Source of the DNA: Gammaproteobacteria bacterium
GTDB lineage: Bacteria; Pseudomonadota; Gammaproteobacteria; Thiotrichales; Thiotrichaceae
DNA length: 64,000 bases
Assembly (NCBI GenBank): GCA_018822845.1
Contig: JAHJJD010000058.1
Location: forward strand, 1 to 64,000
Direction: 5' to 3'
Both the position numbers and the translations under genes were made by a program. A model generated the notes under the pieces. It was given only the letters and a program-made list of their open reading frames with translations, was not told where the DNA came from and made no database searches. Shown piece after piece: positions 34,086-38,027 of the stretch (position 1 is the stretch's first letter; each line of letters starts with the position of its first letter).

Positions 34086-35741
34086 ATGCACGACATTTTC
34101 CTCAGTTATTCGACACAAGACCGCGAGCGCTTGCAGCCGCTGTTTCAGGCATTGGAACGGCAAGGCTGGTCGGTGTTTTGGGATCACCGCACCATCGACA
34201 TCGGCGAGCACTGGAGTAAAAAGATCAACCGGGCGATACGCACTAGCAAGTGTGTAGTGGTGGTGTGGTCAAAAGCGTCTGTTGATTCTGAATGGGTGCT
34301 GGAAGAGGCAAATATCGGCAAACAACGCAATGTGTTGCTCCCGATCCAGATTGATGCGGTGGATATTCCAGTGGGTTTCACCATGCGCCAGACAGGGGAC
34401 TTTGCTCACTGGGATGGTGATGTCAACGATTTGCAGTTTATCCGGCTGGCTGAAAAAGTCGGGGAGTTGGTGGCGCAGCATGATGCTGAGCAAGCCCGGC
34501 TAGAGGCAGTAGCTGCCGCAGAAAAGACGCAGCTTGCTAATGAAAAGAAAGCTGCTGAGCAACGGGCACGCGAGAAAGCTGAACAACAACGCCGTGCAGA
34601 AGCTGAAGCACGCCAGCGCCACGAAGCCGCAGAACAGGAACGGCGGGCAAAAGAAAAAGCAGCCGCTGAACAAAAAGCGCGTGAAGCCGCCAGGCAAAAG
34701 CAATTGGCGCAGGAACGTGCCGCTGAACAAAAAGCTCGTGCAGAAGCCGAACGCCAAGCCAAAATCAACAACCCAGACTCGCCCGGCAAAAAAATCCCGT
34801 TGATTCCTGTTCTTCTGCTATCCACCGCAGTTCTGGGCGGAGGCGGTTATTACTGGCATCAAAAGGAAAATTCCCCTGTAGGAGCCAGCCCTGCTGGCGA
34901 TTCCCCCGTACAGCAAACCAAGGAAGAATCGCTTGCGGGGCAAGCTCCTACAGTAGCCCCTCAAGCATCAGTAGAAATACCGACTGCCTCTCCTGACAAG
35001 AAACCTTTTGAGCCTGAGATGGTTGCAATTGATGGCGGTACTTTCATGATGGGCTGTGACGGCAAGCGTGACGATGTAGAAGGCGGTTGTGTCGATGATG
35101 AAAAACCTGCTCACAAAGTCACTGTTAACAGTTTCCAGATGGGTAAGTATGAAGTGACGTTTGACCAATGGGACGAATGCGAGAAAGCTAAAGTTTGTCC
35201 CCATGTCGAAGATCAGGGTTGGGGGCGTGGCGACCTTCCAGTGATCAATGTCAGTTGGGATGATATTACCCGGAAATATATCCCGTGGTTGAACAAGGAA
35301 ACGGGTAAAACTTACCGACTGCCAACGGAAGCGGAATGGGAATACGCAGCACGTGGTGGTACGGATACCGCTTATCCTTGGGGCGATAAGGCGAGTCATG
35401 AATTTGCTAATTATGGCAAGGATGAATGTTGTGATGGGTTGGCTAGTGGTAAGGATAAATGGGTCTATACTTCTCCTGTAGGCAGCTTTGCAGCGAATGG
35501 TTATGGCCTTTATGACATGAACGGTAATGTGTGGGAATGGGTACAGGATCGTTGGCATAGTGATTACAAAGGTGCGCCAGTTGATGGTGGTTCTTGGGAG
35601 TCTGGCGATAGCGCCGGCCGCGTGTTGCGCGGTGGCTCGTGGAACTACGCGCCGAGGAACGTGCGTTCTGCTTACCGCAGCGACAGCGCGCCGGGCCACC
35701 GGCACAACCTCTTCGGGTTCCGCTTGGCCTCAGGTCAATAG
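34086..35741 (+). CDS. DGR target: TIR / coiled-coil / membrane-anchor / FGE-fold (C-type-lectin-like) receptor
   Basis: This 551-residue protein is the variable protein of the DGR. Residues 1-135 form a TIR domain (HDIFLSYSTQDRERL) with a probable catalytic glutamate E74 in the SEWVLEEA motif. Residues about 137-232 are a Lys/Glu/Ala/Arg/Gln-rich coiled coil. Residues 236-258 are one membrane helix. A linker then leads to a formylglycine-generating-enzyme-fold domain (308-551: GGTFMMGC, YRLPTEAEWEYAARGG, GNVWEWV). The last 43 residues are the variable repeat. The two active-site cysteines that true FGE enzymes carry after GGS are absent (Y521 and V526 there), so it should bind a ligand rather than make formylglycine. 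The predicted topology is TIR inside, variable domain in the periplasm. Confidence 0.9.
   Translation: MHDIFLSYSTQDRERLQPLFQALERQGWSVFWDHRTIDIGEHWSKKINRAIRTSKCVVVVWSKASVDSEWVLEEANIGKQRNVLLPIQIDAVDIPVGFTMRQTGDFAHWDGDVNDLQFIRLAEKVGELVAQHDAEQARLEAVAAAEKTQLANEKKAAEQRAREKAEQQRRAEAEARQRHEAAEQERRAKEKAAAEQKAREAARQKQLAQERAAEQKARAEAERQAKINNPDSPGKKIPLIPVLLLSTAVLGGGGYYWHQKENSPVGASPAGDSPVQQTKEESLAGQAPTVAPQASVEIPTASPDKKPFEPEMVAIDGGTFMMGCDGKRDDVEGGCVDDEKPAHKVTVNSFQMGKYEVTFDQWDECEKAKVCPHVEDQGWGRGDLPVINVSWDDITRKYIPWLNKETGKTYRLPTEAEWEYAARGGTDTAYPWGDKASHEFANYGKDECCDGLASGKDKWVYTSPVGSFAANGYGLYDMNGNVWEWVQDRWHSDYKGAPVDGGSWESGDSAGRVLRGGSWNYAPRNVRSAYRSDSAPGHRHNLFGFRLASGQ
34876..34953. repeat. inverted pair of REP-like 27-mers inside the TIR-FGE coding sequence
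   Basis: Copy A (34876-34902) begins CTGTAGGAGC and ends GGCGATT. Copy B (34927-34953) is the same element inverted. A third copy is at 58740-58766. Each folds as a hairpin. The pair encodes part of the linker between membrane helix and FGE domain (SPAGDSPV and SLAGQAPT), so the repeat doublet has inserted in frame without breaking the gene. Confidence 0.8.
35610..35738 (+). repeat. DGR variable repeat (VR)
   Basis: This 129-bp segment encodes residues 509-551 of the receptor and aligns without gaps to the template repeat at 37467-37595. There are 17 mismatches. Sixteen are at positions where the template has A (to G, C or T); the last, G35734 against C37591, lies in the 3' invariant part expected to be the IMH. 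Thirteen amino acids differ as a result, clustered at 511, 521-522, 530-538, 540 and 542-543. The stop codon follows immediately. Confidence 0.96.
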
Positions 35742-35950
35742 GCCGCTACTCAGGACGGCGGGATGCCGCAGGCTGCCGGAGGCAGCTCTTGTGGCGCGGC
35801 CAGCGTAGCCAAATGCAGGGGCGTTGTCGGAGCAGCCCCGGCATTTGGTGGAGCAGGACGTGCCACAGCGGGGGTGCAGGGGGCTGCAAGCCCCTTGCTT
35901 CGCGTTTTTTGTTGTTGATAAGCGTGTTTTTTCCACGGAAGGGAAAAGCT
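35742..35950. other. structured non-coding stretch between VR gene and HRDC gene
   Basis: This 209-base gap contains no supported gene but three strong hairpins. At 35766-35795 a GCTGCC-GGA-GGCAGC stem is extended by GCC/GGC pairs. At 35811-35846 the arms are AAATGC-a-GGGGC and GCCCC-g-GCATTT. Near 35877-35895 lies GGGGCT-GC-AAGCCCC. A hairpin or cruciform just downstream of the IMH is a known aid to retrohoming in other DGRs, and the first hairpin begins 28 bases after the VR. The others may be terminators or repeats. Confidence 0.6.
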
Positions 35951-36460
35951 ATGAAACTGAAATTTTTCAGTGTGGATGCGCTGGAGCCTGACGATGATCA
36001 ATCCGTGGTCGATAGTTTCTGTACACGCCACCGTCTGATTTCCATAGACAAACGTTTTGTTGAACGTGGCGATTATTGTTACTGGTCGGTCTGTGTCACC
36101 TATCTGGAGCCATCTTCTTCACCTGCCAAACCCACCAAAGCCGTCGACAAGAAAGGGCGGGTTGATTACCGCGAAGCTCTCCCGCCGGAAGATTTTGCCC
36201 GCTATTCGCGCTTGCGCGATTTACGTCGTGAACTGGCCGAAGCAGAGGGAGTGCCCGTTTATACGGTATTCTCCAACGCGCAACTGGCCAAAATGGTGAC
36301 AGAACGGGTTAACACTGCTGTTGCTTTGGCAAAGATTGACGGGGTAGGTGACGCCAAGCTGGAAAAGTATGGCGCACAGTTTTTGCAGTTGCTGAAAGCC
36401 GAATTCCCACCGGCCAGTAAACCAGTGGATAAAGGCGACAATGAAACGCAGAAAGATTGA
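35951..36460 (+). CDS. HRDC-domain DGR accessory protein
   Basis: This 169-residue protein has an N-terminal part (MKLKFFSVDALEPDDD..., RGDYCYWSVCVTYLE) and a C-terminal HRDC domain. The HRDC domain runs from about 75 to 150: RYSRLRDLRRELAEAEGVP, VFSNAQLAKM, and KIDGVGDAKLEKYG. HRDC proteins replace the usual Avd accessory in some DGRs and are thought to bind nucleic acid for the reverse transcriptase. The start at 35951 has AAGGGA ahead. It overlaps the reverse transcriptase gene by 20 bases. No avd gene is seen. Confidence 0.88.
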   Translation: MKLKFFSVDALEPDDDQSVVDSFCTRHRLISIDKRFVERGDYCYWSVCVTYLEPSSSPAKPTKAVDKKGRVDYREALPPEDFARYSRLRDLRRELAEAEGVPVYTVFSNAQLAKMVTERVNTAVALAKIDGVGDAKLEKYGAQFLQLLKAEFPPASKPVDKGDNETQKD

Positions 36461-37448
36461 CCTTGCAGACATCACAGACTGGCATAATCTCCATCTGGCT
36501 GTATGGAAAGCCGCACGCGGTAAGCGCCATCGCCCCGATGTCATCCGTTTTACCAACCGTCTGGACTACAATCTCGGTAAACTGGCAGATGACATTATGC
36601 AGGCCAAAGTCCCTTATGGCCGTTACCGCGAGTTTCACATCCACGACCCCAAAGAACGCCTGATCCATGCTGCCTGCTTTGAAGACCGGGTGTTGCACCA
36701 CGCCATCATGAATCTGGCCGAGCCAGTGTTTGAACGCACACTGGTTCCGACCACCTACGCTTGTCGCCCAGAGAAGGGGGTACACAAAGCCATCCAGCAG
36801 GTACAGGCTAACCTGCGGCGCTATCCGTGGTATGTGAAAGTGGATATTTCCGGTTATTTTCCCAACATTGACCATCATGTTCTTTACAGGCTGTTACAGC
36901 ACCGTTTCAAGGGGGATGATTTCCTCTACCTGTTGTGGCGGATCATTGATTCTTGTCCTGCCCAACCGGGAAAAGGTTTACCGATTGGCTCCCTGACTTC
37001 GCAGCATTTCGCCAATTATTATCTGGATGGCGCAGACCGTTTCCTGCTGGAGTTTTGTAAGGTATGGGGGCATGTCCGCTATATGGATGATACGCTGTTC
37101 TGCTGCGACAGTCGGGAGGCAGCGCAAGTCAAGCTGGTGGAACTACGTGACTGGCTGCGCGACCAGCGCCAGTTACAGGTCAAACCTGATCCACAAATCA
37201 ACTGTAGCAGCCGGGGAGTCAGTTATTGTGGCTATCGGGTTTTGCCCGGAGCGGTTTTGCTTAGCCGTCGCAAACGCCAGCGTTACCAGCAGTTGCGCCT
37301 GCAATGGGAGCAAGCATGGCTGGATGGAGAAATTACCGAACTGGAATTGCAGCAGGTTTACCAGTCTGTCCATGCCATCACGCTCCATGCTGACAGCGAT
37401 GAATGGCGCAGGCAAAACTTGCGTTTGTACCCGTCACCGGCTATGTAA
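36441..37448 (+). CDS. DGR reverse transcriptase
   Basis: This 335-residue reverse transcriptase should copy the template RNA with errors at adenines and pass the cDNA to the VR. The catalytic YMDD is at 214-217. Motif 4 reads GLPIGSLTSQHFANYYL (near 180-195), with the GxxxSQ form typical of DGR enzymes rather than the QGxxxSP form of group II introns. FERTLVPTTYACRPEKGVHKA and YVKVDISGYFPNIDH are the other RT motifs. No nuclease or maturase domain is present, as expected. It overlaps the HRDC gene, and the template starts 18 bases after its stop. Confidence 0.95.
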   Translation: MKRRKIDLADITDWHNLHLAVWKAARGKRHRPDVIRFTNRLDYNLGKLADDIMQAKVPYGRYREFHIHDPKERLIHAACFEDRVLHHAIMNLAEPVFERTLVPTTYACRPEKGVHKAIQQVQANLRRYPWYVKVDISGYFPNIDHHVLYRLLQHRFKGDDFLYLLWRIIDSCPAQPGKGLPIGSLTSQHFANYYLDGADRFLLEFCKVWGHVRYMDDTLFCCDSREAAQVKLVELRDWLRDQRQLQVKPDPQINCSSRGVSYCGYRVLPGAVLLSRRKRQRYQQLRLQWEQAWLDGEITELELQQVYQSVHAITLHADSDEWRRQNLRLYPSPAM

Positions 37449-37778
37449 ATGAGTGGGTGGTAGTCAAGCGCCAACCGCGTGTTGCGCGGTGGCTCGTGGA
37501 ACAACACGCCAAGGAACGTGCGTTCTGCTAACCGCAACAACAACACGCCGGACAACCGGAACAACAACATCGGGTTCCGCTTGGCCTCAGCTCAAACGTC
37601 AGCAGTAGCGGCAGTTGACCAGACTGCCATCCTGTCCTTGATGCGTTTGCATCATGGCGAAAAGCCAATGCCCCCCGGTATGTTAGTAGGGAGACTGCCG
37701 AACATTTGCCGGTGGGGTTTCTTCCTGAATTTCATACTATTATCAGACTCTAATTCAGGTCTATTTTATGGTGGGAAT
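37449..37778. other. 330-base region holding the TR and the antitoxin leader
   Basis: Apart from the template repeat (37467-37595) I see no gene. The remaining 180 bases run up to the antitoxin start and become AT-rich after about 37720 (TTCATACTATTATCAGACTC), where the antitoxin promoter probably lies. An open frame joins the end of the TR to the antitoxin but has no sign of being translated. Confidence 0.5.
37467..37595 (+). repeat. DGR template repeat (TR)
   Basis: This non-coding 129-bp master copy corresponds to the VR at 35610-35738 (offset 1857). Read in the VR frame it is unusually rich in AAC codons, the signature design of DGR templates, because A-mutagenesis of AAC reaches many residues without stop codons. 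It holds 34 adenines, of which 16 are changed in the current VR. Its 3' end carries C37591 where the VR has G, the expected IMH*/IMH difference. Confidence 0.96.
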
Positions 37779-38027
37779 ATGCCAACCCGAATCCTCGCCG
37801 ATACCGTCGCCAGCATTTCCGAGTTCAAGGCGAACCCGATGAAGGTCATGTCCTATGACAAAGGTAATGTCGTTGCTGTGCTGAACCACAATGAACCTGC
37901 GTTTTACTGCATTCCTCCCACCTTGTATGAAATGCTGATGGAGCGTCTGGATGATCTGGAACTGCTCGCCAAGGTGCGTGAGCGTGAAAATGAACCCAGC
38001 ATCAAGGTGGTGCTGGATGAGCTATGA
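37779..38027 (+). CDS. Phd/YefM-family antitoxin
   Basis: This 82-residue protein has the Phd/YefM form: MPTRILADTVASISEFKANP (DNA-binding N-terminus), then a short central fold VAVLNHNEPAFYCIP and a C-terminal helix MLMERLDDLELLAKVRER. Such antitoxins autorepress and neutralise a RelE/Doc-type toxin encoded directly downstream. GTGGGA lies ahead of the ATG. The following reading frame starts as RelE proteins do but stops after 14 codons, so this antitoxin appears to be without its toxin. Confidence 0.85.
   Translation: MPTRILADTVASISEFKANPMKVMSYDKGNVVAVLNHNEPAFYCIPPTLYEMLMERLDDLELLAKVRERENEPSIKVVLDEL

Follow-up and report, generated by a model that had tools for sequence, protein, structure and literature searches.

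Organization of the locus

The window, a stretch of 64,000 nucleotides from a gammaproteobacterial genome (4.0 Mb, 130 contigs), contains an intact diversity-generating retroelement (DGR) with an HRDC-domain accessory protein, a reverse transcriptase (RT) and a template repeat (TR), located directly behind its target gene (Table 1). The target ORF proposed in the initial annotation was confirmed. Pfam matched TIR_2 to residues 4-109 (E 6.7e-23) and FGE-sulfatase to residues 310-548 (E 6.9e-58) of the target. The domain order, the targeting by the DGR and the idea of a binding surface could be retained from the earlier interpretation; the coiled coil could not.

Table 1 Features of the DGR locus and its target gene
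Feature	Position	Strand	Evidence
DGR target, TIR / long charged helix / membrane segment / FGE fold, 551 aa	34086..35741	+	ORF, Pfam
TIR domain	34086..34490	+	Pfam TIR_2, AbTIR alignment, AF2, Foldseek
Unbroken charged helix, residues 116-228	34431..34769	+	AF2, periodicity test
Single membrane-spanning segment, residues 237-258, borderline alone	34794..34859	+	KD19, controls, relatives
FGE-fold (C-type lectin-like) domain, predicted extracytoplasmic	35013..35729	+	Pfam, AF2, Foldseek
Variable repeat (VR); its 3' part is the IMH	35611..35733	+	VR/TR mismatch pattern
Inverted-repeat (hairpin/cruciform) element 3' of VR, common to remote targets	35734..35905	+	Genome search, folding
Accessory protein with HRDC domain	35951..36460	+	Pfam HRDC E 1.3e-18
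DGR reverse transcriptase (YMDD; IGSLTSQ)	36441..37448	+	Pfam RVT_1 E 5.2e-18
Template repeat (TR); also matches VRs on C3, C9, C29, C76, C121	37468..37590	+	DNA scans

VR and TR differed at 16 of 123 nucleotides, and all 16 mismatches coincided with TR adenines, which occupy 31 of the 123 positions (hypergeometric P 6.3e-12). At the level of sequence, this pattern confirmed the gene as a DGR target and demonstrates the rewriting of 17 of its codons by adenine-mutagenic retrohoming. The 17 VR codons with an A at position 1 or 2 allow approximately 1e17 protein variants, and no VR codon can become a stop. As a stand-in for the burial of variable residues, the codons were compared with conservation in a 76-row alignment: a TR adenine at position 1 or 2 occurred in 0 of 11 near-invariant FGE-fold positions versus 17 of 29 others (Fisher P 7.8e-4). 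This codon layout is the usual DGR design.

IGxxxSQ is a DGR-type RT motif, and HRDC-type proteins are one kind of DGR accessory protein beside Avd. The motifs IGSLTSQ and YMDD were invariant across eight aligned RTs. A prophage origin of the DGR was considered and rejected. RT relatives on viral contigs (best 80 of 115) were at most 39% identical versus up to 69% for named cellular ones (best 80 of 269, obtained by alignment scan), which favours a cellular RT lineage. Among these best 80 of 269 were RTs of Thiothrix, Accumulibacter and Nitrosomonas; a scan of genome contigs with the single RT as query gave no match. Directly 3' of the TR, an orphan Phd/YefM-like antitoxin is encoded at 37776-38027; it scored just under the curated cut-offs and is followed, as judged by eye, by the apparent start only of a toxin gene.

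Domains of the target protein

The TIR domain was modelled by AF2 with a pLDDT of about 95 and matched AbTIR (7uxu) and TRR-2 (4w8g) in Foldseek. E74, singled out in the initial annotation, is indeed the Glu of the motif W70-x-x-x-E, and in the alignment it pairs with the corresponding Glu of AbTIR. The WxxxE Glu is the conserved catalytic residue of catalytic bacterial TIR domains, and the target may perform NAD+ chemistry. In the full-length AF2 model (21 rows, mean pLDDT 73.6), residues 116-228 form one long helix, with 44% charged residues across 131-232. A coiled coil had been assigned to residues 137-232; the helix lacks heptad periodicity (power at 3.5 residues was matched by 71% of shuffles), and this assignment was dropped. 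In comparison with Thoeris, the TIR domain matched ThsB_TIR weakly (Pfam, E 5.5e-5), and no ThsA-like family was detected by Pfam in the neighbouring ORFs at 35951-38024. The NTPase of Avs/STAND proteins was not detected by Pfam in the window protein but is present in the paralogues on C9 and at C121:43570.

The FGE-fold domain (residues 301-551, modelled on 76 rows) reached a pLDDT of 94.5 and a pTM of 0.93. Foldseek ranked PvdO (5hha) first with an E value of 9.7e-24. TvpA of Treponema denticola (2y3c, E 3.2e-15) is likewise a DGR variable protein with an FGE/CLec fold; unlike the target, it is without a TIR domain and exposes the FGE domain outside the membrane without an effector. TvpA is a lipoprotein. 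The two C-terminal-loop cysteines characteristic of the formylglycine-generating enzyme are missing from the target, where Y521 and V526 occupy ungapped positions as annotated before; in the phmmer alignment to FGE, this region contains gaps. The loss had been taken to mean that the fold serves as a binding surface. The loss itself was confirmed, but it cannot exclude catalysis on its own because PvdO is also without cysteines in the aligned stretch. Cysteine pairs, although suggestive, were rejected as proof of export for lack of specificity: the N-terminal pair was present in 8 of 12 proteins with a hydrophobic segment and in 2 of 9 without.

The linker between membrane segment and FGE domain is encoded by a palindromic repeat at 34877-34953 (TGTAGGAGC...GCTCCTACA). 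A 9-mer of this repeat occurred 16 times in 20 scanned sequences against 2.5 expected, and by eye similar stretches were seen in the linkers of other FGE proteins.

One template and six targets

Pfam matched 31 FGE, 18 TIR_2 and three RVT_1 domains in the window genome; of the latter, those on C39 and C3 belong to intact RTs and the one on C16 is a fragment. A 115-nt core of the TR was scanned against the window and 19 regions of the same genome. Besides the VR of the TIR protein, with 0 non-A and 14 A mismatches, the TR matched five further effector fusions that the initial annotation had overlooked. According to Pfam these are two Pkinase-FGE proteins (C76, 0/18; C29:26149, 2/17), an nSTAND1-FGE protein (C9, 1/18), a Peptidase_C14-FGE protein (C3, secreted and caspase-like, 1/21) and a CHAT-FGE protein (C121:15378, 7/12). 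Within the limits of DNA comparison, the same TR is thereby shown to match the sensor face of five further proteins. A whole-genome DNA search with the TR recovered the same six VRs; it also hit copies of the TR or its ends on C20, C3 and C76, and other families gave weaker matches. C3 ends inside a TR and C20 starts with one; how the two contigs are ordered is a matter of assembly. When the six VRs were compared with each other, the variable codons differed in 185 of 240 comparisons and the remaining codons in 10 of 330. The cassette on C76 has lost most of HRDC and RT, and its target therefore needs an RT in trans.

Several further loci of this genome deserve mention. TR/VR pairs at L045 (C121:43211-44316; 0 non-A and 16 A mismatches) and L036 (C22; 4 and 16) had no RT or HRDC relative nearby; since only two intact RTs were found in the assembly, they may be either fossils or targets of an RT in trans. 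L035 (C16:6405-10309) holds a second TR with its own two VR targets (0 non-A/17 A and 1/14) and a broken RT of another type. In the CHAT-FGE target (L044 7250-9793), the start of the VR is partly duplicated in tandem, with two VL-GG-W stretches. A TIR_2 match lies in a separate ORF just upstream of the nSTAND1-FGE target (L043, C9:18433-18786), so the C9 gene may be a TIR-nSTAND1-FGE gene split by a frameshift.

The inverted-repeat element downstream of the VRs

Inverted repeats of approximately 170 nt directly follow the VR in the window. A genome search located this element at six places (seven pieces), each adjoining one of the six VRs; the C9 copy is partial and that of C121 is reduced to two fragments. 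With gaps counted, the window element was 91-93% identical to the copies on C76, C3 and C29, 76% to that on C9 and 49% to that on C121, while the coding DNA just upstream was 52-64% identical between the window and C76, C3 and C29. The DNA downstream of the element was unrelated on C9, C29 and C121 (14-31%), but not on C3 (93%, same cassette) or C76 (59%).

Folded as DNA, the element gave a z score of -4.27, and none of 200 shuffles folded as well. RNAalifold, applied to five copies without the degraded one of C121, predicted 59 pairs. Three of them had a compensatory change, one of these (C:G to T:A) in the small hairpin. The covariation term was slightly unfavourable (+0.92), which makes covariation weak evidence for the element.

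In the DGR target site of BPP-1, an inverted repeat likewise comes after the IMH, downstream of the VR (Guo et al. 2011, PMC3240598; here and below, statements refer to the accessible parts of the papers cited). This hairpin is required for efficient retrohoming, and IMH and hairpin together redirect targeting to a new gene (PMC3240598). Phage-type hairpins have a stem of 7-10 bp, a 4-nt GRNA loop and a distance of 4-34 bp from the VR (PMC3240598), unlike the compound inverted repeat of about 170 nt in the window with its 3-nt loop in the first small hairpin. By analogy with BPP-1, the element is likely an address label for retrohoming in trans. Alternatively, it may derive from a recent copying event at the VR end.

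Membrane topology

The hydropathy of the target peaked at residues 237-255 with a KD19 value of 1.61, the highest in the protein. Control segments were taken from six window proteins regarded as cytosolic; none of these 101 segments reached 1.6, four reached 1.35 and 11 reached 1.25. The membrane helix annotated at 236-258 was borne out as a hydrophobic segment that is borderline alone, and AF2 speaks against it by leaving residues 228-302 disordered (pLDDT <50). The segments preceding the FGE domain in the remote targets had KD values of 1.97 (C121), 1.44 (C29), 1.35 (C76) and 1.25 (C9), and the C3 target begins with a signal-peptide-like N-terminus (KD 2.01). The C9 segment proves nothing alone because 11 of the 101 control segments reach its value. 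A membrane or signal-like segment precedes the FGE domain in all six targets of the window TR; two kinase-FGE proteins of another type had values of -0.44 and -0.14 at this place.

Relatives of the target carry a membrane segment at the same place with KD values of 1.25-3.03. For those with the order TIR, membrane segment, FGE the values were 2.11 (G058), 1.80 (G051), 1.39 (T. eikelboomii) and 3.03 (G257). The earlier placement of the TIR domain inside and the FGE domain outside is supported mainly by relatives, namely G058, G257 and the split forms of G056 and G059. In the target, a variable sensor outside the cytoplasm is likely coupled to a TIR domain inside the cell; comparison supports both the predicted export of the FGE domain and its coupling to the TIR domain.

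Relatives and distribution

In the family, 14 of 63 genomes contained an RT match at E <= 1e-20, and the TIR-membrane-FGE order also occurs in other Thiothrix. The TIR domain of the G058 gene is 81% identical to that of the window. In G059 and G056, an ORF for TIR and membrane segment overlaps the next ORF, an FGE target whose N-terminus resembles a signal peptide (KD 1.81), and HRDC and RT come next. One species has the membrane TIR and the exported variable FGE domain in a single protein and others have them as separate but coupled proteins, which argues that they act together. Such loci often decay: the RT of G056 is truncated, a 64% identical homologue in G053 contains an in-frame stop in a genome without RT match, and the HRDC-RT deletion on C76 lies in the window genome itself.

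The window TIR was matched at E <= 1e-24 in 10 of 369 genomes drawn from the class, the window genome included. Outside the latter, the TIR-matching genomes contributed 12 loci. Three of these have an FGE domain in the TIR ORF (G257 and G107 with a membrane segment, G187 without), and for one no ORF was obtained by motif. No TR was found near the genes of G107 and G187, nor any RT match at E <= 1e-15 in these genomes. G257, a gammaproteobacterium of another family, has an unambiguous membrane helix. Downstream of its gene come a bAvd-like ORF, whose score (E 7.2e-6) falls short of the Pfam cut-off, and a TR. VR and TR differed by 21 mismatches, 20 of them at TR adenines, and one 3-nt gap (P 2.9e-14). 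G257 has the same architecture with an independent DGR type.

Among 90 RT loci (L068-L077 and L115-L194, with one T. eikelboomii contig present twice, as L070 and as L115), TIR and FGE profiles matched one ORF together only in the T. eikelboomii contig; the home-made profiles were narrow and may miss other TIR-FGE fusions.

Relation to known systems

FGE sensors that are diversified by DGRs and carry TIR or other effectors have already been published. Because such targets, some of them membrane-located, are in print, the window system is a variant rather than a new category. DGR targets were proposed as antigen sensors, including TIR-bearing and some exported ones, with the remark that invader sensing 'remains to be experimentally tested' (Dore 2024, PMC10907252). 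The corresponding trait is present here, with VR-bearing FGE domains joined to TIR, kinase, CHAT, nSTAND1 and C14 effectors. In Thiohalocapsa PB-PSB1, the DGR likewise writes a C-terminal CLec/FGE domain fused to TIR, CHAT, kinase or NACHT/nSTAND1, degenerate loci share TR classes, and some targets have membrane or signal segments (PMC10907252). Unlike in the window, TIR occurs there as N-terminal effector of STAND targets, with CHAT (DGR 2), or as neighbour. The accessible part of that paper describes no receptor of TIR, membrane segment and FGE for this strain, and its main text contains 0 occurrences of Thiothrix.

Cyanobacterial DGR proteins similarly combine an N-terminal kinase, caspase-like, TIR or CHAT domain with one CLec; targets with kinase, TIR and CHAT domains are remote, the VRs are served in trans, and cis elements near their 3' ends were suspected (Vallota-Eastman et al. 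2020, PMC7517822). Most were predicted to be cytosolic, in contrast to the membrane or signal-like segments of all six window TR targets, for which an extended 3' element was identified in addition. Membrane-located FGE-sulfatase targets were noted early (PMC3521204, 2012), most cellular DGR target clusters have a membrane or signal segment (Roux 2021), and FGS domains are known from conflict systems (PMC7159879, 2020; PMC8195603, 2021). Within the open-licence literature searched, no paper mentioned both a diversity-generating retroelement and Thiothrix.

Proposed function

As far as sequence can show it, the DGR pattern, the domain order, the catalytic Glu and the shared TR are established. 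On this basis we consider it probable that the target is a single-pass receptor with a DGR-varied FGE ectodomain and an NAD+-based TIR response, part of a panel of six sensors addressed by the hairpin. The protein would reside in the inner membrane with its C-terminal FGE fold outside the cytoplasm, where the adjacent DGR rewrites the 17 codons. Its ligand would be extracytoplasmic, most likely a phage part, the toxin or secretion machinery of a competitor, or the surface of a foreign cell. Binding may cause clustering or re-orientation, transmitted by the membrane segment and the long charged helix. The TIR domains would thus be brought together, and E74-dependent NAD+ chemistry could lead to suicide or dormancy, with a putative role in immunity. 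The same TR would write the sensors of two kinases, an nSTAND1 NTPase, a CHAT protease and a secreted caspase-like protease, so that one mutagenic template may supply a sensor panel with different outputs; that the six targets function jointly is what we infer from their common template.

If true, this would be a Toll-like layout in bacteria, with a variable ectodomain outside, a TIR domain inside and a binding face that is rewritten within a lineage, while sister receptors with other outputs are fed from the same template. The DGR-based adaptive immunity proposed for multicellular bacteria would become directly testable in a culturable genus. More tentatively, one template might feed randomised extracytoplasmic sensor domains to at least six receptors of one bacterium via the 3' hairpin and so maintain a somatically diversified, multi-output repertoire of antigen receptors at the surface, the TIR-membrane-FGE architecture having been adopted by two DGR types.

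The same anatomy could instead serve the recognition of kin or neighbours, or attachment, in filaments and rosettes, with the TIR domain adjusting behaviour or killing upon mismatch. Thiothrix is multicellular, and the host genus forms filaments. Most cellular DGR targets are membrane-anchored binders of extracellular substrates (Roux 2021), and kin recognition was raised as an alternative by Dore 2024 (PMC10907252). We nevertheless regard this as unlikely: the effectors linked to the common template (TIR, CHAT, caspase-like, nSTAND1) are of conflict and cell-death types, and the Pfam matches of the six targets include no adhesin-type domain.

Less probable still is a hydrophobic segment that does not cross the membrane, with the FGE face detecting invader proteins inside the cell in the manner proposed for STAND-FGS systems. 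The borderline hydropathy and the AF2 model, in which the segment is not resolved, are compatible with this, published FGS systems were described as intracellular sensors (PMC8195603), and the window genome also encodes FGE proteins without any hydrophobic segment. The clear membrane segments of same-order relatives (G058, G257) and the signal-peptide-like N-termini before FGE in the split forms argue against it.

About as improbable is an inactive, decaying or fixed DGR with the TIR-FGE gene as its relic. Stops, frameshifts and deletions occur in relatives and in the C76 cassette, and only two RVT_1 genes of the window genome are intact. In the window, however, the cassette is intact and every VR mismatch lies at a TR adenine; for four of the five remote genes, the TR-linked VR shows 0-2 non-A mismatches.

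That the FGE domain remains an enzyme like PvdO or FGE, with the TIR domain in a regulatory role, is very improbable. PvdO, the nearest solved structure, is indeed a tailoring enzyme that lacks the FGE cysteines over the aligned stretch, but randomisation affects the active-site end of the fold, with variable codons differing in 77% of the six-paralogue comparisons.

Apart from the FGE fusions, proteins with a TIR domain and a membrane segment at L308, L315, L318, L082 and L069 have other C-terminal parts (SPOR-, DUF1566- and Sel1-like, by eye) and may represent a wider gammaproteobacterial family of membrane TIR proteins with exchangeable ectodomains.
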